From NCBI RefSeq assembly GCF_903970965.1, contig NZ_CAJCKW010000004.1, positions 186,001 to 250,000 on the forward strand: a DNA stretch of 64,000 nucleotides. Reading direction: 5' to 3'. Made by a program: the position numbers and the translations under genes. Below, one piece after another: positions 50,689-63,008 of this stretch. Below the pieces are notes generated by a model. That model did not search any database and was not told where the DNA came from. It saw nothing but the letters and a program-made list of their open reading frames with translations. The stretch's first letter is position 1, and each line of letters opens with the position of its first letter. The stretch comes from Aureimonas sp. ME7. GTDB taxonomy: Bacteria > Pseudomonadota > Alphaproteobacteria > Rhizobiales > Rhizobiaceae.

Positions 50689-51879
50689 ATGCTGGATACC
50701 CCACGATCCGACGATTCTTCGGGAAACGGCGCGCAGCCTAAGAATGCCGCGCCCACTCTCGAAGCCGATAAGGCCGACGGGGGCGTAATCCTGCATTTCG
50801 GCGGCGACTGGCTGGCGCGCACCATCGGCGGCGTGGAAGACACGGTGGCCGAAACGCAGAAGTCGGATCTCGGCAAGTCGATCACCTTCGACCTCGCAGG
50901 GGTTGGCCGCCTCGACACGTCCGGCGCGCTTCTCGTCGAGAAGCTTTCGCGCGGGCTGACGGAAGGGGGCGCCAAGGTCACAATCGAGGGCACCGGCGAC
51001 AGCGAATCCATGCTGTTCGACGCGGTGCGCAAGGCCCTCGACACGAAACGGCCGGAAAAGAAGGTCGCGCAGTCGTCCGTCGTCGTCGATCTCGTGGCCA
51101 AGCTCGGCGAGAACGTCATCGCCGCAGGCCGCGAGTTCATGATGGGCCTCAACATCGTCGGCGCCTCGCTCTACGGCGCGGGGCGGCGCATCACCGGCCA
51201 GACCCGGTGGCGCCCGGCCGCCATCGTCAGCCAGATGGATCGGATGGGTGTGCGCGCCGTGCCCATCATCGCGCTCATGAGCTTTCTCATCGGCGCGGTG
51301 ATCGCACAGCAGGGCGCGTTCCAGCTTCGCAATTTCGGCGCCGAGATCTTCGTCGTCGATCTCGTCGGTATCCTGCAGCTGCGCGAGATCGGCGTGCTTC
51401 TCACCGCGATCATGATCGCCGGCCGCTCGGGCAGCGCGATCACCGCCGAGATCGGCTCCATGCGCATGCGCGAGGAGGTGGACGCCCTTCAGGTCATCGG
51501 GCTCAACCCGATCGGGGTCCTGGTGTTTCCACGCCTCGTGGCGCTGACGATCGTTCTGCCGCTGCTTGCCTTCATCGCGGATCTCGCCGGCCTTCTCGGC
51601 GCGATCGTGGTGACGTGGGTCTATTCGGGTGTGACGCCGGAAGCCTTCATCACGCGCATGCGCAGCGCCATCGACATCGGCACCGTCTTCGCGGGACTGA
51701 TCAAGGCGCCGTTCATGGCCATCGTCATCGGCGTCGTTGCGTCGATGGAAGGGTTGAAGGTGGGCGGCAGTGCCGAAAGCCTCGGCCAGCACGTCACCGC
51801 CTCCGTCGTCAAATCGATCTTCCTGGTCATCCTCCTCGACGCTGTTTTTGCGATTTTCTATGCCGCCATCGGATACTGA
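50689..51879 (+). CDS. mlaE: MlaE family lipid ABC transporter permease with N-terminal STAS domain
   Basis: A 396-residue fusion. Residues about 25-130 form a STAS-like domain (GDWLARTIGGVE, ITFDLAGVGRLDTSGALLVEKL) similar to MlaB, and the rest is an MlaE permease (VPIIALMSFLIGAVIAQQGAFQLRNFGAE, MIAGRSGSAITAEIGSMRMREEVDAL). In E. coli MlaB is a separate protein. The start at 50689 is tentative; a longer N-terminus is possible. First gene of the mla operon; it overlaps mlaF by 20 bases. Confidence 0.93.
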   Translation: MLDTPRSDDSSGNGAQPKNAAPTLEADKADGGVILHFGGDWLARTIGGVEDTVAETQKSDLGKSITFDLAGVGRLDTSGALLVEKLSRGLTEGGAKVTIEGTGDSESMLFDAVRKALDTKRPEKKVAQSSVVVDLVAKLGENVIAAGREFMMGLNIVGASLYGAGRRITGQTRWRPAAIVSQMDRMGVRAVPIIALMSFLIGAVIAQQGAFQLRNFGAEIFVVDLVGILQLREIGVLLTAIMIAGRSGSAITAEIGSMRMREEVDALQVIGLNPIGVLVFPRLVALTIVLPLLAFIADLAGLLGAIVVTWVYSGVTPEAFITRMRSAIDIGTVFAGLIKAPFMAIVIGVVASMEGLKVGGSAESLGQHVTASVVKSIFLVILLDAVFAIFYAAIGY

Positions 51880-52687
51880 GACGACCAAGGCCGACGAGCG
51901 CGAGGTCATCATTCGCGCCAGCGACGTGACGGTTCGCTTCGGGTCGAAGACGATCCTCGAAGGGCTGTCGCTCGACGTGCGACGCGGCGAGATCCTCGGG
52001 TTCGTCGGCGCGTCGGGCACCGGCAAGTCGGTGCTCCTACGCACCATCCTCGGCCTCAACCAGAAGCAGAGCGGCACGATCGAGGTCTTCGGCATCGACT
52101 ACGAGCGCGCCGACGAGGTCGAGCGCCTCTCGGTCGAGCAGCGCTGGGGCGTCCTGTTCCAGCAGGGTGCGCTGTTTTCGTCGCTGACGGTTCTGGAGAA
52201 CATCCAGGTTCCCATGCGGGAATATCTCGATATCTCGCCCAAGCTGATGGAAGAGCTCGCCCGCCTGAAAATCGACCTCGTCGGTCTCGCACCGGATGCG
52301 GCGGAGAAGTATCCGTCCGAGCTTTCGGGCGGCATGATCAAGCGTGCGGCGCTCGCCCGCGCTCTGGCGCTCGATCCCGATATCGTCTTCCTCGACGAGC
52401 CGACTTCGGGCCTCGATCCCATCGGCGCCGCCGACTTCGACGAGCTGATCATGACCCTGCGCGATACGCTGGGGCTGACCGTCTACATGGTGACGCACGA
52501 TCTCGACAGCCTGTTCCAGGCCTGCGACCGCATCGCCGTTCTCGGCAAGAAGAAGGTGCTGGTCGAGGGACCTCTCCAGACCATGCTGGATAACGACGAT
52601 CCGTGGGTGAAATCCTACTTCCACGGCAAACGGGCGCGGTATGTCGTGCCCAAAGAAGACAATCCGTACTACGACGGGAATGAGTGA
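51860..52687 (+). CDS. mlaF: MlaF lipid ABC transporter ATPase
   Basis: The ATPase of the MCE lipid transporter. In its 275 residues are Walker A GASGTGKSVLL, Q-loop LFQQGALFSSLTV, signature LSGGMIKRAALARAL, Walker B DIVFLDEPTSGLDP and the switch THDLDS. The C-terminal tail (YFHGKRARYVVPKEDN) is typical for the group. The start at 51860 overlaps mlaE, and the stop overlaps the mlaD start by one base, showing tight coupling. Confidence 0.96.
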   Translation: MPPSDTETTKADEREVIIRASDVTVRFGSKTILEGLSLDVRRGEILGFVGASGTGKSVLLRTILGLNQKQSGTIEVFGIDYERADEVERLSVEQRWGVLFQQGALFSSLTVLENIQVPMREYLDISPKLMEELARLKIDLVGLAPDAAEKYPSELSGGMIKRAALARALALDPDIVFLDEPTSGLDPIGAADFDELIMTLRDTLGLTVYMVTHDLDSLFQACDRIAVLGKKKVLVEGPLQTMLDNDDPWVKSYFHGKRARYVVPKEDNPYYDGNE

Positions 52688-54354
52688 TGGAAACCAGAGC
52701 GAACTACATCCTCGTCGGCGTCTTCACGCTGGTGGTGCTTCTGGCCAGCTTCGGCTTCGTCTACTGGTCGGCCAACGTCTCGGACCGCGATTCACGCGTG
52801 CCGCTGCTCGTCCGCATCGAAGGCTCGGTGTCCGGTCTCAGCCAGGGTAGTCAGGTTCTCTTCAACGGTCTGGCCGTCGGTTCCGTCACCAACCTGCGCA
52901 TCGACCCGAACAACCCGCGCGTCGTGATCGCGACGACGCAGGTCGATCGCGCCACGCCCGTGACGACCTCCACCACCGCGACGATCGGCTTCCAGGGTCT
53001 GACCGGCATCGGCTTCATCGGGTTGACCGGCGGCAACGTCAACGATCGCAACGTGATCCAATCGGCCCTTGAACAAGGCGCGACGCCCGTCATCACCGCT
53101 GATCCTTCGGATGTGACCGACATTCTGGCGACGGCTCGCGACATCGCCGACCGCGCCAACAACATCCTTGGCGAGTTCGAGGAACTGGTGCAGGCGGTCG
53201 GGCCGTCCGTACGGACCACGGCGGACAACGTCGCCCAGACGTCCACCAACGTGCGCACCTTCACCGACAGCCTCGCGGCCAACGCCGATCAGATCGACGA
53301 CTTCCTCGCCAGCTTGGCCGACCTTTCTCGCAGCGCCAACAACGTGGCGGAGCGACTGCCGAGCCTGATGGATCAGGCGAGCACCTTCATCGCCGCGCTC
53401 AATGTCGGCGCCGTCAACCAGTCGATCGAGAACGTCGCAACGATCACGCAGGCGCTGCGCGACCAGACGGATAATTTCTCGGCCGCGATCGAATCCGTTT
53501 CCACCACCGCGCGCGCCTTCGGCTCGGTCGGCGATGCGGTCAACCAGAGCCTGCCGAGCGTCCAGGCCTTCCTCTCCCGCCTCGGCCCAATTTCGGAAAC
53601 CGCGACCAGCGTCGCCTCGCGTCTCGATACGACGCTGGCGGACGTCAAGAATATCACGGCAGCGGTGAACCCGGATCAGGTCCGCTCCACGGTGGAAAGC
53701 GTGTCCGGCTTCACCAGCGCGCTCAACGCGCAGTCGGGCCGCGTAGGCTCGGTCGTCGCCGGCGCCGATACGGTCCTCCAGACCTTGAACGGTGCCTTGG
53801 ACGGGCTCAACGGCACCCGCGCGCGGATCGACACGCTGCTGGCCGCCGTCAGCGCCAGCACGGTCAACCGCGCCATCAACGACGTGTCTTCGGCGACCAA
53901 CAACATCGCGGCGGCGGCGCAGTCCGTTCGCGGGGTCGCCGACAATATCGGCAACCGTCGCGAGGACATCGATCGGATCATCACCAATGTCGAGGACACG
54001 AGCGGCAATCTGCGCGTCGCCTCCGCGCAGGTGCAGAACCTGATCAATTCGGTCAACGGCCTCGTCAACAGCCCGGACGGCCAAGGCCTCACGGCCGAAG
54101 CGCGCGCCACGCTGCAAAGCATCCGCCAGACGGCGGAGACGATCCAGCGCTCCGTCGGCCCGATCGCCGCCAACCTGCAGAACTTCACCGGCCAGGGCCT
54201 GCAGGACGCACGCAACCTCATTCGCGAAACGACGCAAGCCGTGACGCGGATCGAGCGCGCGATCATCGAGCTCTCGAACAACCCGAGCCGGGTGCTGTTC
54301 GGCGGCGAGGGTAACGGCGAGGTCCGCCAGTTCGATGGGCGCGTCCGGCGCTGA
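52687..54354 (+). CDS. mlaD: MlaD/MCE domain protein with long helical C-terminal region
   Basis: A 555-residue inner-membrane anchored protein: one TM segment at 6-28 (YILVGVFTLVVLLASFGFVYW), a single MCE domain at about 38-120 (VSGLSQGSQVLFNGLAVGSVTNLRID), then about 420 residues of Asn/Ser/Ala-rich amphipathic helix. E. coli MlaD has only about 180 residues, so this is the long form that can build a helical periplasmic needle. Short motifs of the type V-N-x-[ST]-[IV] recur near residues 241, 330 and 391. A GTG three bases upstream could also start the gene. Partners are mlaE and mlaF. Confidence 0.93.
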   Translation: METRANYILVGVFTLVVLLASFGFVYWSANVSDRDSRVPLLVRIEGSVSGLSQGSQVLFNGLAVGSVTNLRIDPNNPRVVIATTQVDRATPVTTSTTATIGFQGLTGIGFIGLTGGNVNDRNVIQSALEQGATPVITADPSDVTDILATARDIADRANNILGEFEELVQAVGPSVRTTADNVAQTSTNVRTFTDSLAANADQIDDFLASLADLSRSANNVAERLPSLMDQASTFIAALNVGAVNQSIENVATITQALRDQTDNFSAAIESVSTTARAFGSVGDAVNQSLPSVQAFLSRLGPISETATSVASRLDTTLADVKNITAAVNPDQVRSTVESVSGFTSALNAQSGRVGSVVAGADTVLQTLNGALDGLNGTRARIDTLLAAVSASTVNRAINDVSSATNNIAAAAQSVRGVADNIGNRREDIDRIITNVEDTSGNLRVASAQVQNLINSVNGLVNSPDGQGLTAEARATLQSIRQTAETIQRSVGPIAANLQNFTGQGLQDARNLIRETTQAVTRIERAIIELSNNPSRVLFGGEGNGEVRQFDGRVRR

Positions 54355-55985: not shown

Positions 55986-58900
55986 TCAGTCGAAGCGCCC
56001 GGATGCGTGCGCCAGCATCGTGTAGACCTTGCCCGTGTCCGAGGTAAGGTAGGACTTGGTCCGGGTGTTGTCCGGGTCGCGGCGGGACGCATCCTGCAGA
56101 AGCGACTCGAAGTCGGCGATGTAGCGGTCCACCGCATGGCGGAAATCCGCGTCACGCTGGTACTTGCGACGGATCTCGTCGAACGTCTGCTGTCCCTTCA
56201 TCGTGTAGAGACGACGGGTGAAGACGTTGTGCTCGCCGTTTCGATAGCGGTCCCAAAGCTCGACCGACACGTTGTGATCGATGGCGCGCGCGATATCCAC
56301 TGACAACGAGTTCAGCGACTCAACGACGTGTGCCTGCGAACGGTCGATGCGGGGGGCGGGGGCTGCAGGCTGAGCCGCGGCGACCGGAGCCTCCTCGTCG
56401 CCGTCCTCATCCTCGGAAGCGCGACGCAGGAGATCCGACACCCAGCCGGCCTGCGCCTCGTCCGCCTTGGCGCTGGGAGCGCGGGAGGAGGCGGGCTGGG
56501 CGGCTGGCGTTGCAGGGCGAAGCGGCGAGAAGTCGCCGGAGCGCGCCTGGGACGGTGCGCTTTCCGCCGTGCGCCCGACCTGGACCCGAGGCGTTTCACC
56601 GCCCGAACGCGTGTCCAGCGCAAGATTCCCGCTGACCGCCGAGCCGGTTGCCTGGCGGCGCTCAGCTTCCTGCTGCGCGTCGCGACGCTCTGCCACTGCG
56701 GGCTGCGAAGCCGGGGTCGCCACGGAGCGTGCCGACCGTGCCGCTTCCGAAGCTGGGCCTCGCACATCCAGCGAACGGCCGGACTGGGTGACGATGTCCC
56801 CGAGCTCGCGCAGGGCGCGGATCTGGTCCGTCACCGCGCGGCGCATGGCACGCGTGCTTTCGCGCGTCTCCTCCGGCAGCTCGAACACGCCGCGACGAAT
56901 CTCCGTACGGGCATTCTCGAGTTCGCGGCGGATGTCGCTGGCTGCGCGGCGCATCTCGTTCGTCGCGCCGCCGAAACGCTCGGTCGCCTCTTCGAGGACG
57001 CTGCGGACCGCTTCGCGGATTTGCTCGGCACTGGCCTGGCTCCGACGCTCGGTTTCCTCCAGCTGCTGCTCGGCCTCGCTGAGCGAGCCGCCGACCTCGC
57101 CTGTGATCGTGCTCGCGACCGCCTTGGCCCGGGCCTCCGCCTCGCCGAACAGCTTCTCGACGACGCCTTCGAACGAGCCGAGCATCGCCGCGATGTCCTG
57201 CGAGCGCTGAGACAGGGTCTGCGCCAGGGTGTTGAGCCCCTCGTGACGCTCGTCGAGCGTCGCCTGGAGGTTGGTCTGCGTGCCGTCGAGAAGGGCGGCC
57301 GCTTCCGAAAGAAGACGCCCGTGATCGGCGAACTTGTCGGTCAGCGCGCCGATCTGCGCGAAGGCCGAGGTCGTCACCACGTCCATGCGCGACATGGACT
57401 GGTCGAGGCGGTCGGACGACGAGGCGATCTCGTCGCCGACGCGCTCCGCTTCGGTGCGGAAGCGGCCGCCGGTGTCGAGAAGCGTGGATTCGGCGCGGGC
57501 GAAGTTGCCGCCGGCCTCGTCCAGCATTTCGCGCAGGGTCGTGTTGCTGGTGCCCAGACGCTCGACCAGCGTCTCGATCTGCGCGCCGAGGCTGCCTTGA
57601 GCCTCGACCACGCGGGTGACCGCCGCGCTGGCGCGCTCGTCCAGCGAGGACAGGAGCTCGTTGGAGGAGCGGCCGAGCCGGTCGACGGTTTCTTCCGTAC
57701 GGCGCACGAATTCGGAAACGATCGAGGAGTTTTCCGAGCGCAACCGGTCCGCGACCTGCTGCGAGGTACCTTCCAGCGCCTGCACGGCGAGGGTGCCGCT
57801 TTCCGACAGGCGTTCGATGATCGGCTGGGTTTGCGTTTCGATCAGGTGGGCGATCTCGGCGTTGCGGTCGGCCAGCATCTGCGACAGGGCGCGAGTACGC
57901 TCGGTCACGGCGGAGCCGATGCGGTCGGCGCTCGAGGTCAGGTCGCGCTCGGACACCGAGACGCGCTCGGCGATCTCGTTGCCGAACGCGGCGGTCGCGT
58001 CCGACATCTGCTCGCGGACCTTTTCGGCCTCGACGCGGATGGCCGTGGCGACGCCCGACAGGCTGAGGGCGATCTCCGACCCCTCCTGAACCAAGGCGGC
58101 GCGCGCCGTTTCGGCATCGCGCAGGATATGGCCCGACACGTCGGCCGTCTCGTCGCGGATGCTGCCGGCGACGGAAACGATCTCGCCGCGAATGCGCTCG
58201 GCCGTTCCTTCGATCTCGCTCCGCAGATCTGCTGCTGCGCGCGCCAGATCCTCGTTGAGCCCCGTCGAGGCGGACCCGAGAAGGCCGGACAGGCGATCGG
58301 ACAGACCGGCGAGCTCGCCGACGAACCGGTCGGCATGTTCGCCGAGAGTGGAGGTGCTGCGATCGGTTTCGCCGTGGATCAGAGCGGCCGTATCGCGAAC
58401 ACGCAGTGCGAAGCTTTCCGCGTCGCCGAGGAGGCGCAGGCGCGCGGCCTCTGCCTGCTCCGACATGGATGCGGCAACGGCGTCGAGTTCCTCGGTGAGG
58501 CGCGTCGCGTCGGTCGCCAGACGCTGGCGGCTGTCGCCGGACGTCGCTTCGAGCCGGTCCGTCGCGCTCGACAGGTCGGCGACGAGCTGGCCGGCCGCCG
58601 ATCCGATCTGCTCGCGCACCCGGTCGGTCTCTCCGCGCATGGCTTCCACGACATGCCCGACCTCGCTCGCGATCCGCCCTGCATCCTCCAGAAGCGTCCG
58701 GCGGGAAACCTCGCCGGTTTCGCGAAGGCGGGTGCTGGCGTCGGTGAACTCGGCGGCGATCGCGGCCGTCTGGTCGGCGACCTCGCGGCGGAGGCCGTCG
58801 GACTGCTCGCGGATCTGGATGGCAGCGGACGCCACTTCCTCGCGGATCTGCGATGCATCCACCGCGAACTGTTCGCGGCTCTTGTCGCCGACGATGCGCA

Positions 58901-61900
58901 GGCGCTCGGCGGCGTGCTCCAGATCGCCCGACAAGGCGCCGGTCTGATCCACCACGATCTGGCGGGCAGCTTCGGCGTCGTTGCGCAGCTGCTTGGCCAT
59001 GGCTTCCAGACCACCGGCGAACTCGCCGGCCACTTCGGCCAGACGCTCGCGCGCGGCCTCGGCCTCGGTGCGCATCGCCAGCGACGCGCCGCCGATCTGG
59101 GTCGCGAAGGCATCGCCTTCGAGAGCGAAGGCCTCGCGCAGCTCTTCCGTCTCGCCTCGCATGCGGGAGGCGACTTCCGCCACGCGGCGGCCGAGCGTTT
59201 CGGCTTCTTCCGTGAAGCGTGCCTGTGCCTCGGCGCCGATCGCGCGGATCGATTCCGCCGACGAGACGATGCCTTCCGCGATCCGGGCGCTTTCGCCCGT
59301 CAGTTCGTTGCGGGCTGCCTCCGACGTTTCCTGGACCGACTGAGTGACCGCGCGGATCCGTTCCTCGAAGCGCTCGGCTTCGGCGACGAAATCGGCCTGC
59401 GCGTTCTGCGAGGCGCTGCGGAAGGTCGAGCCGAGTTCACCGATGACGATGGCGATCTTCTGCGTCTCGGTTTCGAGGCCGGCACGGGCACGGTCCGCCT
59501 GCTCGCCCATGGTGGCGGAGGCGCTGACGATGGTCTCGCGCAGCGTATCGGCGATCAGCGAAGTGCGTCCCGACAGCGTGCGCTCGACATTGCCGAGACC
59601 GCGCTCCAGGCTGGCGGCGATCGCCTCCGTGCGCTGATCGACGGCAGCCGCAAGGCTTTCCGTGCCGGCGGCCAGCGCTGCCGCGATCTCGTCGCGCTTG
59701 GTTTCCAGCGCAGCGGTGACGTTGCCCGCGCTCTGCTCCAGCACGCGGCGAACATCGTCCGCGCGGTCGCCGAGCGTGGCGGCCAGCGAGCCGGCGACAT
59801 CTTCGATCGCGAGCGTCAGGTTGTCCCGGCGCTCGTCCATCGCGGTGGCTAGCTGGCCGTCGGACTCCACGAGCGCTTCGCGCAGTGCCTGGATCCGCGA
59901 GTCGAGCGTCGAGACGATGGTCGCGTTGCCGCCTTCCAGCGTCGTGGCAAGCTTGGTCGCGCGCTCGTCGAGGTCGGAGATGAGCGAGGTTTCCGAGGCG
60001 TCCACCAGCTGGCGCATGGACAGGATGCGCTCGTCCAGACCGTCCAGGATGGCGCCGCGCGCCTTCTCCACCGCGTCGCGCAGCGTTGCGCCGCGCCCGT
60101 CGAGACCTTGGATCAGCAGGGACAGCGCATTCTCGACGGCGGACAGGATCGTGCCGGCATTGTGGTCGATGTCGCGGGCGAACTGGCCGGTGCGCTCGTC
60201 GAGCGTGGTGACGAGGCCGGCCTGCGACGTTCCGATGGTCGTCGAAAGGTCCTGGATGCGGGACGCCAGCTCGGAAACCACGCGCTCGACGGACTGTTCG
60301 AAGCCGGCTTCGATCCCGGCCGTGCGCATTTCGAGACGCGCCAGGAACTCCTGCCGCTTGTCGTCGCCGGTCATCAGCGCCGTCTCGAGCCGACCGATCA
60401 CATCGTCGCCGACGCGTGCGGTGTAGAGATCGAGCGAACTGGACAGGCGCTCGCCGCTGTCGCGCATGAAGGCTTCGCTGGCGGCCAGGCGGTCGGAAAG
60501 ACCGGCCGACAACGACTGGTTGCGTTCGTCGAAGTTCGAGAGAAGCCGCTCCGTGCGCTGATCCAGCATCCGGTCAAGCGACTCGGTGCGGGTCTCGATC
60601 TCGCGGGCCATGGTCTCGGCGCGACCGTCGAGGGCGACGTTGATCGCGGAGGTGCGCTCGGCGAGCAGCGCGTTCATGCGCTCGAGACGATCCTCGAAGC
60701 GATCGGTCACGTCGCGGTCGACGCTGGAAAGCGCAGCCTCGAGGCGGGTCGCCCGCTCGTCCACCCCATTGGTCAGACGGCCTTCGGCGCCTTCGATCAG
60801 CGTCTCGAAACGCGTCACGTTCTGCTCGATCGTCTGGGTCAGCGCCGCGCCGCGCTCCTCGAACTGCGCCAGCAGCGTCTGCTGGGCGAAGGCGAGGGAC
60901 GTGTCGATATCGGCCGCACGGTCGCCCAGCGTCGCGCCGAGCGCGCCGATATGGGTATCGAAGCTCGAACGCAGGTGGTCCGAATGCGCCGCGAAGCTCG
61001 CGTCGATCTCGGAGCGCGCGGTGGACGCGACGCCGGAAAGATCTTCGCTCCCTTGCGTGATCGCGTCGCGAACCTCGCCGGTGCGAGCGGCAAGCGCGCG
61101 AACGAATTCGCTCGACGCATCCTGCAAAGTGGCCGTCATCTCGGTTGCCGAGCGATCGATCGCCAGCGCCTGACCCTCGATCGTCTGGACGAGCTGGGCG
61201 CCCTTGCCGGTCAGCGCCGTTTCCAGGGCGGCTAGGCGCTCGTCGAAGCGGCTGATGATGTCGTCGTTGCGGTTGCGCAGGAGCTCGCTCGCGCGGGTGA
61301 CTCGGGTCTCGAACGCTTCGTCGACCTGCTGCAGGAAGCGCTGCGTCTCGTTCGACAGGAACGACAGGCGCTCGTCGAGACCCGCGGTCAGCGAGGCGGC
61401 GAGCGTCGAGTTGTCGGTCTGGATCCGTGCTGCGCGCTCGTCCAGCGTCTCGGCAAGCTGACGGTCGAAGGACTGCGAGCCTTCGATCAACGTGTCGGTG
61501 CGCTCGCCCAGGATGCGAAGAACCGCGTCGTTGGAGGAACGGAGACGCTCGCCGGCCTCGTCGCCGATGGTGGCGACGCGCTGGACCAACTCGTCGGAAC
61601 GCGCCTTGAGGATATCCGCTTGGGCGGAAAGCGAGCGTGCCAGCTCTTCGCTCGTCGCTTCGAGGCGACGCGTCGTCTCGTCGGCGGTCTCGCCGATACG
61701 GCGGATCACGCTCTCGCTGCTGCCGCTGAGCGCCTCGTCCACGGCGCGGCTGCGCTCGTCGAACAAGGTGCCGAGTTCCTGGCTGCGACTTTCATAGGCG
61801 CGCGAAAGCGCTTCGCCGCGCTCGTCCAGAAGGGTGTGGAAGCGCTGCGTCGCGTCTTCGACCTGCGCCAGAATGCGCGAGGAGGCGCTGTCGACGTCGC

Positions 61901-63008
61901 CGATCAGACGGTCGTGCGAACCGACGACGGACGAGCGCAGGCGCTCGGCGTGAGACAGCATCGCTTCGCGCTCGCTGGCGAGATCGTTGACGAGCGAACG
62001 GATCTTGACCTCGTTGTCGGCATAGGCGCGTTCCAGCGACGACACTTCCGAATGAACGATGCCTTCGAGTTCGCCCATGCGCGAAAGCGCGCGCTCGACA
62101 CCCTCGCCGAGCGCCGCGACCTCGCGGCGGATCGCGTTGCCGACGCTGGTCACCTTTTCGGAAGCGATGTTCTCCGGCTCGGCGAGACGCAAGGCCACTT
62201 CGGCCAGCGAGCGGCTCATCAGGCGAAGGTCCTGCGAGCGGCGAACCATCACCGCGAAGGCGAGAATCAGGAGGGCCGGCAGGATGATGGCGCTGGCGAC
62301 GATCGCCAGCGTCACGCCCGCGGCGTTTCCGGCTCCCGTCCCATTGGCGCCGAGGAACGCGACGGCGGCCGCCGTCGCCAGGGCGACCCAGGCGGCTGCG
62401 ACGGCCGCACCGACGACGAGTGTCTTGCGGGACGAGCGTCGGTTCAGAAGCGCGTCCGCCATGACGGCAGCCGAGCGCTGCTCGTCGTTGGCAACGGTGG
62501 ACTTGAAGTCGCGAGTGCGCGAAGCGCGAGCAAGGGGCGGTTCGTTGCCGGGTTCGGACTGACGTGGCATTTCCGGCGAAACGCGCGGCGTCGCCGCAGC
62601 TGCGGTTGCTGCGGCTGTCGCCGTAGCCGCGTTCAGCCGGTCGCCGGAGGTCGGCGGATCGATCGTGTCGGCCGGAGCGCTCGAAGCGATCAGCTGCTCC
62701 TCGCCGAGATGGAAGGGGGCCTCTTCGGAAGCCGCCTCGGGCTCATCCGGTTTGGCGGGCGCGTCGTCCTCGGCCTCCGCCTGATCGCCGCTGGTCGCTT
62801 CCTCGACGGACCGGTCGAATTCGCTGAGTGCGAAGTCGATGGACACTTCGTCCGCCGTCAAGCTTTCTTCCTCGACATGCCCCTGGGCCTGCCCGGAAAG
62901 CCGAGGTTCGCCCCCCTCGGTCGACATGAAGTCGGTATCCTGAAGCGCCGCTTCGAGTTCGTTGACCGCTTCTTCGGAAAGCTGTTCCGCCGTCTTGATC
63001 TTCGACAT
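55986..63008 (-). CDS. Giant coiled-coil membrane protein, growth pole ring (GPR/RgsE) homologue
   Basis: A 2340-residue protein. Residues 1-190 are acidic and low-complexity; TM helices lie at 196-219 and 230-254 with a Gly-rich turn; a rod of almost unbroken helix runs from about 260 to 2100; a Pro/Ala/Ser linker follows; and a conserved-looking domain of about 121 residues closes it (SLSVDIARAIDHNVSVELW, then DADFRHAVDRYIADFESLL). Size, two TM segments and the apolipoprotein-like rod match GPR of Agrobacterium (about 2100 residues) and RgsE of Sinorhizobium, which form a ring at the growing pole and are needed for polar growth; this match is from memory. The rod has a strict 22-residue repeat up to residue 1166 and a 29-residue repeat from 1167. 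The gene is monocistronic and ends in a strong terminator. Automatic names such as kinesin-like are not supported. Confidence 0.88.
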   Translation of the reverse strand: MSKIKTAEQLSEEAVNELEAALQDTDFMSTEGGEPRLSGQAQGHVEEESLTADEVSIDFALSEFDRSVEEATSGDQAEAEDDAPAKPDEPEAASEEAPFHLGEEQLIASSAPADTIDPPTSGDRLNAATATAAATAAAATPRVSPEMPRQSEPGNEPPLARASRTRDFKSTVANDEQRSAAVMADALLNRRSSRKTLVVGAAVAAAWVALATAAAVAFLGANGTGAGNAAGVTLAIVASAIILPALLILAFAVMVRRSQDLRLMSRSLAEVALRLAEPENIASEKVTSVGNAIRREVAALGEGVERALSRMGELEGIVHSEVSSLERAYADNEVKIRSLVNDLASEREAMLSHAERLRSSVVGSHDRLIGDVDSASSRILAQVEDATQRFHTLLDERGEALSRAYESRSQELGTLFDERSRAVDEALSGSSESVIRRIGETADETTRRLEATSEELARSLSAQADILKARSDELVQRVATIGDEAGERLRSSNDAVLRILGERTDTLIEGSQSFDRQLAETLDERAARIQTDNSTLAASLTAGLDERLSFLSNETQRFLQQVDEAFETRVTRASELLRNRNDDIISRFDERLAALETALTGKGAQLVQTIEGQALAIDRSATEMTATLQDASSEFVRALAARTGEVRDAITQGSEDLSGVASTARSEIDASFAAHSDHLRSSFDTHIGALGATLGDRAADIDTSLAFAQQTLLAQFEERGAALTQTIEQNVTRFETLIEGAEGRLTNGVDERATRLEAALSSVDRDVTDRFEDRLERMNALLAERTSAINVALDGRAETMAREIETRTESLDRMLDQRTERLLSNFDERNQSLSAGLSDRLAASEAFMRDSGERLSSSLDLYTARVGDDVIGRLETALMTGDDKRQEFLARLEMRTAGIEAGFEQSVERVVSELASRIQDLSTTIGTSQAGLVTTLDERTGQFARDIDHNAGTILSAVENALSLLIQGLDGRGATLRDAVEKARGAILDGLDERILSMRQLVDASETSLISDLDERATKLATTLEGGNATIVSTLDSRIQALREALVESDGQLATAMDERRDNLTLAIEDVAGSLAATLGDRADDVRRVLEQSAGNVTAALETKRDEIAAALAAGTESLAAAVDQRTEAIAASLERGLGNVERTLSGRTSLIADTLRETIVSASATMGEQADRARAGLETETQKIAIVIGELGSTFRSASQNAQADFVAEAERFEERIRAVTQSVQETSEAARNELTGESARIAEGIVSSAESIRAIGAEAQARFTEEAETLGRRVAEVASRMRGETEELREAFALEGDAFATQIGGASLAMRTEAEAARERLAEVAGEFAGGLEAMAKQLRNDAEAARQIVVDQTGALSGDLEHAAERLRIVGDKSREQFAVDASQIREEVASAAIQIREQSDGLRREVADQTAAIAAEFTDASTRLRETGEVSRRTLLEDAGRIASEVGHVVEAMRGETDRVREQIGSAAGQLVADLSSATDRLEATSGDSRQRLATDATRLTEELDAVAASMSEQAEAARLRLLGDAESFALRVRDTAALIHGETDRSTSTLGEHADRFVGELAGLSDRLSGLLGSASTGLNEDLARAAADLRSEIEGTAERIRGEIVSVAGSIRDETADVSGHILRDAETARAALVQEGSEIALSLSGVATAIRVEAEKVREQMSDATAAFGNEIAERVSVSERDLTSSADRIGSAVTERTRALSQMLADRNAEIAHLIETQTQPIIERLSESGTLAVQALEGTSQQVADRLRSENSSIVSEFVRRTEETVDRLGRSSNELLSSLDERASAAVTRVVEAQGSLGAQIETLVERLGTSNTTLREMLDEAGGNFARAESTLLDTGGRFRTEAERVGDEIASSSDRLDQSMSRMDVVTTSAFAQIGALTDKFADHGRLLSEAAALLDGTQTNLQATLDERHEGLNTLAQTLSQRSQDIAAMLGSFEGVVEKLFGEAEARAKAVASTITGEVGGSLSEAEQQLEETERRSQASAEQIREAVRSVLEEATERFGGATNEMRRAASDIRRELENARTEIRRGVFELPEETRESTRAMRRAVTDQIRALRELGDIVTQSGRSLDVRGPASEAARSARSVATPASQPAVAERRDAQQEAERRQATGSAVSGNLALDTRSGGETPRVQVGRTAESAPSQARSGDFSPLRPATPAAQPASSRAPSAKADEAQAGWVSDLLRRASEDEDGDEEAPVAAAQPAAPAPRIDRSQAHVVESLNSLSVDIARAIDHNVSVELWDRYRNGEHNVFTRRLYTMKGQQTFDEIRRKYQRDADFRHAVDRYIADFESLLQDASRRDPDNTRTKSYLTSDTGKVYTMLAHASGRFD
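58293..59510 (-). repeat. Fourteen consecutive 29-residue coding repeats in the GPR rod
   Basis: Residues 1167-1572 of the giant protein divide without gaps into 14 units of exactly 29 residues. Each begins with a hydrophobic residue followed mostly by Arg (MRGET, MRTEA, LRNDA, LRIVG, IREQS, LRETG) and has Arg or another polar residue near position 9. A length of 29 equals two 11-residue units plus one heptad, or eight helical turns. After the array, units of 22, 22 and 40 residues follow. Confidence 0.85.
59511..60104 (-). repeat. Nine consecutive 22-residue coding repeats in the GPR rod
   Basis: Residues 969-1166 divide without gaps into nine units of exactly 22 residues, each opening with a hydrophobic residue-Asp-x-Arg-like motif (LDGR, LDER, LDER, LDSR, MDER, LGDR, LETK, VDQR, LSGR). 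Similar units start at residue 394 and occupy most of 394-968, with breaks of 18, 15, 11 or 62 residues. The 11-residue base period is that of hendecad coiled coils and apolipoproteins. Confidence 0.88.

Follow-up and report, generated by a model that had tools for sequence, protein, structure and literature searches.

The growth-pole proteins GPR (Agrobacterium tumefaciens) and RgsE (Sinorhizobium meliloti) belong to the same family of giant rod proteins, which organize growth at one end of the cell in a group of bacteria from soil and plants and in which two N-terminal membrane segments precede ∼1700 residues of continuous helix and a conserved C-terminus. Family proteins localize to the growing pole in both species and homologues occur in all Rhizobiales families (PMC8262873, PMC7327166); the two N-terminal segments are described as transmembrane domains (PMC8262873), and an rgsE deletion mutant of S. 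meliloti 2011, a laboratory strain, is able to grow (PMC7327166). The same work treats the rod as a run of apolipoprotein-like domains, and the words repeat, hendecad, periodic, heptad and amphipathic are absent from its main text (PMC8262873). Here we analyse the rod of the homologue encoded by Aureimonas sp. ME7 within a stretch of 64,000 nucleotides (contig NZ_CAJCKW010000004.1, positions 186,001 to 250,000; hereafter the window), in which a switch from 22- to 29-residue repeats lies inside a conserved element, termed J.

Several other rods resemble this one in part. Scy and FilP of Streptomyces, like GPR, are coiled-coil cytoskeletal proteins; Scy exceeds 1000 residues and consists almost entirely of hendecads, while in FilP a heptad start is extended by hendecads, such that a change of period along a rod of this type is known (PMC9858780). 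Unlike GPR, both have a DivIVA-like N-terminus and form dimers. They are also not known to have membrane segments. SF-assemblin, the algal striated fibre protein, shares 29-residue repeats with the window rod but is eukaryotic, has a rod of only ∼240 residues, and its 29 residues comprise four heptads plus a skip residue, not 11+11+7. In the stalks of trimeric autotransporters such as EibD, right- and left-handed coiled-coil segments are joined in one stalk (PMC7247746); in contrast to GPR, EibD is a trimeric adhesin with a named saddle domain between the two segments. Period changes along coiled coils and 29-residue repeats are therefore already known. A conserved splice element flanked by exchangeable arrays is new as far as the literature was searched: neither a period switch nor J was found for the GPR/RgsE family in titles and the starts of abstracts, and repeats may be mentioned in the first GPR paper and in the survey of hendecads by Martinez-Goikoetxea and Lupas (J Struct Biol 2023).

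The features of the window that carry the switch are the following.

55986..63008, minus strand: GPR/RgsE-like protein of 2340 amino acids (stop included), with a PF01442 match and a C-terminal domain shared across the order
59511..60284, minus strand: 22-residue array, residues 909-1166, from lag scores and segmentation; nine units annotated earlier, residues 969-1166, occupy 59511-60104
59409..59675, minus strand: junction element J, residues 1112-1200, with its most conserved core at ∼1120-1178; contains the 22-to-29 switch at 1166/1167
58293..59510, minus strand: 29-residue array, residues 1167-1572, 14 gapless units of 11+11+7, from lag tests and consensus

The first-pass annotation of this DNA, whose coordinates and translation of the giant protein proved right, had segmented the rod by hand into nine units of 22 residues (969-1166) followed without a gap by fourteen units of 29 (1167-1572). 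Self-similarity analysis confirmed the change of period. Against 60 shuffles, residues 969-1166 gave z scores of 9.2, 9.3 and 9.7 at lags 22, 44 and 66, and residues 1167-1572 gave 10.4, 12.9 and 15.1 at lags 29, 58 and 87. With 1000 shuffles the latter values were 11.1, 12.1 and 12.5, while lag 22 in the first block scored 10.1 (0/1000 shuffles as high) and lag 29 was absent from it (z 0.7). The signals persisted in 1000 within-class shuffles, in which residues are permuted inside hydrophobic, small and polar classes and the amphipathic pattern is thereby kept: lag 22 retained a z score of 4.5 (0/1000 as high), and lags 29, 58 and 87 retained 3.0 (2/1000), 4.3 (0) and 4.1 (0), respectively. 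When successive units were compared over the 29 lags from 15 to 43 in a profile of 11 Aureimonas-clade proteins, lag 29 was best in 13/13 comparisons, with starts from 1167 to 1515, and lost at 1544; the first comparison, at 1167, was weak (0.66 for lag 29 vs 0.64 for lag 22). As lag 29 fails for the fourteenth unit against what comes next, the array comprises 14 units and ends at 1572, in agreement with the earlier count. The count of nine, by contrast, is partial, the exact-22 array beginning near 909, upstream of the annotated start (Viterbi segmentation 909-1180). In the automatic segmentation the switch falls at 1180/1181 and the 29 state runs on to 1666, which leaves an uncertainty of about half a unit in the position of the 22/29 boundary. 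The two kinds of shuffle, together with the 13/13 lag test, rule out the switch as an effect of chance or hand-fitting.

Both unit lengths are built on hendecads, as had been proposed. In a family-wide consensus of 840 units of 29 from 77 proteins and 2838 units of 22 from 94 proteins, the core positions are 1, 5, 8, 12, 16 and 19 in the 22-unit and 1, 5, 8, 12, 16, 19, 23 and 26 in the 29-unit, and positions 5 and 16 often carry small residues; the 22-unit is 11+11 and the 29-unit is 11+11+7. The stripe of core residues that characterizes a hendecad-type coiled coil, with 3.667 residues per turn over units of 11, is present. The expected change in hydrophobic periodicity was also observed, the Fourier peak of strong hydrophobes moving from 3.663 to 3.623 residues per turn across the junction and the power at 3/11 dropping from 31.4 in the 22-block to 1.3 in the 29-block. 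Neighbouring units in the window's own array are only ∼20% identical, indicating that the array is old and that its exact unit length has been kept. An alignment of the 11 Aureimonas-clade proteins over rod residues 331-2059 contains a single insertion or deletion (indel; 11 residues at 749) and none in 969-1572, with a mean pairwise column identity of 0.75 in the 22-block and 0.69 in the 29-block.

Homologues were drawn from the best 80 of at least 553 confirmed relatives (the named loci, given L numbers). Two cut by contig ends (L064 and L080) and three with frames under 900 residues (L048, L052 and L062) were left out; the remaining 75 and the window protein make up 76 near proteins, and 20 Agrobacterium-genus proteins chosen from 39 genomes extend these to 96 clade members. 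A further 20 distant proteins represent 19 families among the matches listed (f42 twice), mostly those with long frames. A profile of window residues 1101-1230 scored 77-125 bits in 15 Aurantimonadaceae outside the clade from which it was modelled, compared with 9-18 bits at the second-best place, and in 14/15 the boundary that it implies falls within 20 residues of the automatic one. Across the wider set 84 proteins have a junction match, and the automatic boundary can be compared in 65. The two agree within 29 residues in 19, comprising those 14 Aurantimonadaceae, the window protein, L094, L104, L107 and L111; elsewhere the first 29-block lies apart. When 66-residue profiles were slid along the entire protein, the segment 1121-1186 was the only one between ∼700 and 1650 with clearly unique matches in both Rhizobiaceae and Phyllobacteriaceae/Brucellaceae, with medians of 29 and 27 bits and margins of 21 and 22, respectively.

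A further comparison used 89-residue profiles built from the 11 Aureimonas-clade proteins only and scored on the 96 members, including those 11 (round 0). Unique matches were obtained for J in 80/96, for the overlapping segment 1096-1184 in 78/96 and for a second landmark, I, in 86/96, while control segments between 412 and 1640 gave 15-49/96. Most segments from 1666 on gave 94-96/96, those within 1723-1868 giving 67-69. After iteration J was present in 96/96 full-length clade members with zero gap columns and in 0/20 of the distant proteins. When 297 genomes of the order were searched in six frames with a 33-row J alignment at an E value of 1e-8, the element was detected once each in 12/13 own-family genomes and in 0/284 genomes outside the family, with at most 17 candidates scored per genome. 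The one miss, G164, is a 1.5-Mb genome that keeps the GPR C-terminal domain without a J match. Five columns of J (R1126, L1134, G1137, R1157 and A1171) are invariant both in a 30-protein sample and in the 33 rows, and N1140 is nearly so (26/30), at an identity to the window of 16-30% outside the Aurantimonadaceae; a search of the PDB with J alone gave a best E value of 0.3. The best-minus-second margins and the whole-genome search rule out a generic repeat match, within the limits weighed below. These data show that J, 89 residues long and gapless, has remained a single copy as the neighbouring arrays were amplified or gave way to arrays of other periods.

The rest of the rod is divided as follows.

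61893..62156, minus strand: landmark N, residues 285-372, conserved rod start, in 96/96 clade members
60996..61262, minus strand: landmark I, residues 583-671, within a 22/33-residue region; iterated profile in 96/96 (round 0, 86/96)
58011..58292, minus strand: irregular hendecad tail of the 29-block, residues 1573-1666, from segmentation and lag tests
57747-58013, minus strand: landmark K, residues 1666-1754, found in 94/96 clade members (not located in L047 and L053)
57588..58010, minus strand: 22-residue block, residues 1667-1807, from segmentation; landmark K is its first part
57150..57587, minus strand: 25-residue block, residues 1808-1953, with a stripe of 3.55 residues per turn
56811..57074, minus strand: landmark C, residues 1979-2066, conserved rod end, in 96/96 clade members

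Segmentation of the window protein assigns a 22/33/40 mix from residue 355, 22 from 909, 29 from 1181, 22 from 1667, 25 from 1808, 29 from 1954 and 18 from 2014; low-score calls are noise, as shuffled rods give calls too, mostly scored under 0.6. The rod is thus a mosaic of several period blocks, and the 22/29 switch is one among several. When all proteins are pooled, the stripe has a median of 3.663 in 22-blocks, 3.630 in 29-blocks, 3.565 in 25-blocks and 3.597 in 36-blocks, close to the values expected for whole turns (3.667, 3.625, 3.571 and 3.600, respectively). The array units are 22/33 hendecads, 29 (11+11+7), 18/36 (11+7), 25 (11+7+7) and 40, each approximating a whole number of helical turns. 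The biggest stripe change in the window protein occurs at the 25-block (3.55), not at the 22/29 junction. Blocks of 25 residues also occur across the order, 18/20 distant proteins having one in the C-terminal half, and the 25-block is both wider-spread and a larger stripe change than the 22-to-29 switch.

A 29-block was called in 74/76 near proteins (in 61 directly after a 22/33 block), in 20/20 Agrobacterium-genus proteins and in 2/20 distant proteins, one of the latter calls being the N-terminal stretch 238-331 of L113. Its start and length vary widely, from 0 to 35 units, and this variable presence, start and length rule out a family-wide 22-to-29 switch at a fixed position. The longest 29-array seen, of ∼35 units, is that of L049 (Aureimonas sp. 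Leaf427; residues 1184-2205). What is conserved is J, with the switch inside it, and not the position or length of the 29-block. The expectation of a conserved junction therefore holds for its sequence but not for its absolute position, landmark distances and flanking lengths varying widely.

The periods flanking J, hand-counted as best lags before and after it in the 96 proteins, differ by clade. In 26/26 Aurantimonadaceae J is preceded by 22 or 44 and followed by 29 or 58; in 12/13 Mesorhizobium relatives it is preceded by 18 or 36 and followed by 29. The order is different in Sinorhizobium/Ensifer, where 29 precedes J in 8/8 and 18 follows in 5, and in Brucella and Phyllobacterium relatives, where 29 precedes J in 19/19 and is followed by 22/33/44 in 9, 29 in 8 and 40 in 2. 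Agrobacterium has 22, 18 or 40 before J and mostly a weak 29 after; its homologues share J and short 29-blocks with the window protein, and the 2115-residue Agrobacterium-genus proteins contain two such blocks (1123-1193 and 1326-1393 in most) of ∼2.4 units each, ahead of 40- and 25-blocks. The majority period differs across J in 6/6 clades. The pairing of 22 with 29 noted for the window is accordingly found in some lineages but not in others, and two Hoeflea-type proteins keep J without a 29-block. On a 77-row tree from which nineteen near-duplicates were left out, the label ‘with 29-block' requires four changes, consistent with a gain near the family base, with Hoeflea having lost the block and L118 standing as a case apart; this quickly built tree has long branches and does not distinguish gain from loss.

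The arrays between the landmarks grow and shrink mostly by whole units. In 26 close pairs sharing no member, gaps inside 22-blocks were multiples of 11 in 12/12 cases, and those inside 29-blocks were multiples of 29 in 8/18, the others being 29n+36 (3), 11 (3) and 16, 6, 4 and 1. Outside the rod, nearly all gaps were 1-10 residues long, the exceptions being one each of 15, 22 and 56. All pairs of the 20 Agrobacterium-genus proteins, in which one event is counted repeatedly, gave rod gaps of 11, 18, 22, 29, 33, 40, 44, 66, 80, 88, 99 and 132, with nine exceptions of 4 and one of 7, and gaps outside the rod of 1 to 13 or 18. Landmark distances range from 296 to 1151 residues for I-J and from 93 to 1192 for J-K. 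Between N and I, the difference modulo 11 is 0, 4 or 7 in 38/38 within-clade pairs of distinct distances, from two clades only (chance 0.27); between J and K, 16/59 differ by a multiple of 29 (chance 0.03); between I and J the excess is weaker, 100/190 pairs falling in 0/4/7 modulo 11. These pairs are not independent and the clades are drawn by genus name. No clear excess was seen for moduli 10, 13 or 7 at the N-I, I-J and J-K spacings. In the 14/16 Aureimonas-type proteins in which K was found, all J-K distances are congruent with one another modulo 29: 380 (one protein), 554, 844 (one) and 1192 (one). Recent amplification is evident in L042, where neighbouring units in residues 1735-1928 share 80% DNA identity.

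The assignment of the protein to the GPR/RgsE family rests on its ends as well as on its rod.

62244..62423, minus strand: two hydrophobic, presumably membrane-spanning stretches, residues ∼196-255, read from the translation
55989..56330, minus strand: conserved C-terminal helical domain, residues 2227-2340, from order-wide query matches and a structure model

The C-terminal 114 residues, used as a query, are present in 284/297 genomes of the order, and the named loci from Sinorhizobium and Agrobacterium rubi are 78% identical to the window protein over this domain; as it aligns with these homologues and spans the order, the window protein is, on sequence grounds, a homologue of the growth-pole scaffold GPR/RgsE. 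The family architecture is present throughout, with two N-terminal hydrophobic segments, a very long helical rod containing PF01442 matches (Pfam apolipoprotein; E value 1.2e-58 over 13 stretches) and the conserved C-terminal domain. The closest relatives among the matches listed are Aureimonas species (97% over the C-terminal 114 residues), with which the tree agrees, and the N-terminal 603 residues match only themselves in their own genome. A DUF805 match at residues 190-261 is weak and under its cut-off. The C-terminal domain (∼110 residues) is predicted to be all-helical, with a mean predicted local distance difference test score (pLDDT) of 82.5 over 134 residues; a fold search with it found nothing in the PDB at an E value of 0.001 or better, and a known fold was rejected on the outcome of that search. 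The NCBIfam model of ZorA matched residues 1528-1818 (E value 4e-11, 41.9 bits, profile positions 315-601 of 619), but membership of this Zorya family was rejected because the score lies far under the family cut-off of 190 and only the later part of the model is matched; the likeness to ZorA tails probably reflects helical repeats only. In L048 (Jiella pelagia) and L052 (Aurantimonas manganoxydans) the frame round the C-terminal domain is short, 725 and 533 codons, respectively, which points to an interrupted gene or to an assembly error. Genes for an MlaF-like ABC ATPase and an MCE/MlaD-like protein (51770-54354, plus strand; both under curated cut-offs) adjoin the GPR gene and converge on it, and an MCE homologue is present in the fetched flanks of 54/71 GPR loci of at least 19 kb. 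The presence of MCE genes beside GPR fits a link between GPR and lipid transport.

Taking 3.63 residues per turn for a straight helix (PMC9858780), the computed pitch is right-handed at ∼545 Å for a stripe of 3.667, practically straight for 3.625 and left-handed at ∼332 Å for 3.571. A change of supercoil twist is thus predicted at the switch, as first suggested; the sign of the 29-array's handedness is not secure, as with 3.60 it stays weakly right-handed. The explanation that we consider, on balance, the probable one is of an array rod with five landmarks, in which J acts as a fixed, phase-keeping adaptor and probable docking site. The rod consists of helical tandem arrays that differ in unit length and are interrupted by landmarks N, I, J, K and C. 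Arrays change mostly by whole units, such that the core stripe stays in phase at any array length. GPR chains may associate side by side in a long coiled coil, in which the 22-array would be slightly right-handed, the 29-array nearly straight and the C-terminal 25-block left-handed. J would then join, in phase, two supercoils differing in pitch, and would probably be the docking point for a pole partner or a neighbouring GPR chain, with the flanking arrays serving as spacers that set its distance to the membrane anchor and to the C-terminal domain. The switch may in this way constitute the mechanical or docking boundary originally put forward. A bolder version would make J a collar dedicated to splicing and docking in the growth-pole ring, fixing the attachment point of a partner or adjacent GPR chain, with the flanking arrays as unit-quantised rulers that evolve independently; it is speculative and we regard it as unlikely.

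Published deletions bear on this proposal. In five 2115-residue Agrobacterium-genus proteins, on which the mapping to A. tumefaciens rests and not on a named C58 record, J occupies residues 1247/1248-1335/1336, wholly inside the domain A-IV-1 (1036-1381). With A-IV-1 deleted, the protein retains very little function and forms no paired foci. The 20-residue A-IV-1cc deletion (1100-1120), by contrast, restores mostly normal cells and paired foci when it is the sole copy, and produces ectopic poles in trans to the wild type (PMC8262873). The A-IV-1cc stretch lies outside J. The conservation of J and the deletion that contains it suggest that the element is a docking or adaptor site. An attractive interpretation of the small A-IV-4cc deletion, whose severity was described as surprising, as a helix-phase error was set aside as undecidable, its size being reported as 20 and 21 residues and its limits as 413-433 and 413-434 (22 residues) (PMC8262873).

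Several observations weigh against the adaptor-and-docking reading. The A-IV-1 phenotype cannot be pinned on J, because the deletion removes 346 residues, 257 besides J. The same best-lag class stands on both sides of J in 11/96 proteins, and L060 and L063 (Hoeflea types) have J without a 29-block; with flanking periods that differ by clade, J is therefore not simply a ‘22-to-29 adaptor'. The swapping of arrays was read from lag scores together with an automatic segmentation in which multiples of 11 are confused, and among the J-K distances of other Aurantimonadaceae (378, 400, 427, 505 and 641) only 641 is congruent with Aureimonas modulo 29. Within the Aureimonas clade the conservation of 1145-1195 (0.762) is hardly higher than that of its surroundings (0.750 and 0.687), and the regions of landmarks I, K and C are conserved as much as J or more. 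Later iterations recruit ordinary segments too (469-557 in 94/96, 754-842 in 87 and 1039-1127 in 89), which leaves round 0, the margins and the whole-genome search as the only discriminating evidence, the last having scored at most 17 candidates per genome. An AlphaFold2 model of residues 1080-1290 as a single chain of modest confidence (mean pLDDT 72; five models 51-72) consists of helices 1081-1196 and 1201-1289 separated by a possibly artefactual break at 1197-1200; at 1167 the model helix runs on uninterrupted, and a break there was rejected.

The alternative that survives best is that J is a protein-binding site only, at which homogenization of the arrays by recombination halts, such that unlike arrays accumulate on either side, the period change having no structural role. 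The invariant R1126 and R1157 and the nearly invariant N1140 suggest a specific surface, the array types flanking J differ between clades, and RgsE interacts in two-hybrid assays with RgsA, TolQ and, more weakly, RgsS (PMC7327166). No partner has been mapped to J in the literature examined, however, and I, K and C are equally candidate sites; we rate this explanation as a serious possibility that falls somewhat short of probable. Neutral quantization, under which surviving insertions approximate whole turns (18, 22, 25, 29, 33, 36 and 40), the amplified unit is a matter of chance and the boundary is functionless, is slightly less likely: the observed periods, most indels, the variation by clade of the array type beside J and the near-identical neighbouring units of some species, such as those in L042, all fit, but a single, gapless J at the boundary, recognizable at such low identity, is left unexplained. 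Apolipoprotein-like lipid binding, in which the rod would lie on the membrane, the drift of the nonpolar face would differ between 22- and 29-arrays and J would border the membrane-bound part, has been proposed in print (PMC8262873) and draws on the Pfam match, a weak PDB match to apolipoprotein A-IV (E value 0.00056) and the adjoining MCE/Mla-like genes, but is improbable given that strong hydrophobes dominate only 4/22 and 4 to 6/29 positions with small residues between, that the unit consensus is a narrow coiled-coil-like stripe and not a broad nonpolar face, and that the Pfam match may stem from a shared 11/22 periodicity alone.

The scaffold that forms the ring at the growing tip of Rhizobiales is giant and anchored in the membrane, and its rod is now mapped into five landmarks and arrays of stated period. 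The location of J, at a period switch and inside a published domain deletion, narrows a 346-residue question to an 89-residue one, and the unit structure suggests a rule for designing deletions, namely that removal of whole units would keep the helix in phase. Rods containing anywhere from 0 to 35 units of a single type form a natural series suited to asking whether the length of the rod or its twist matters.

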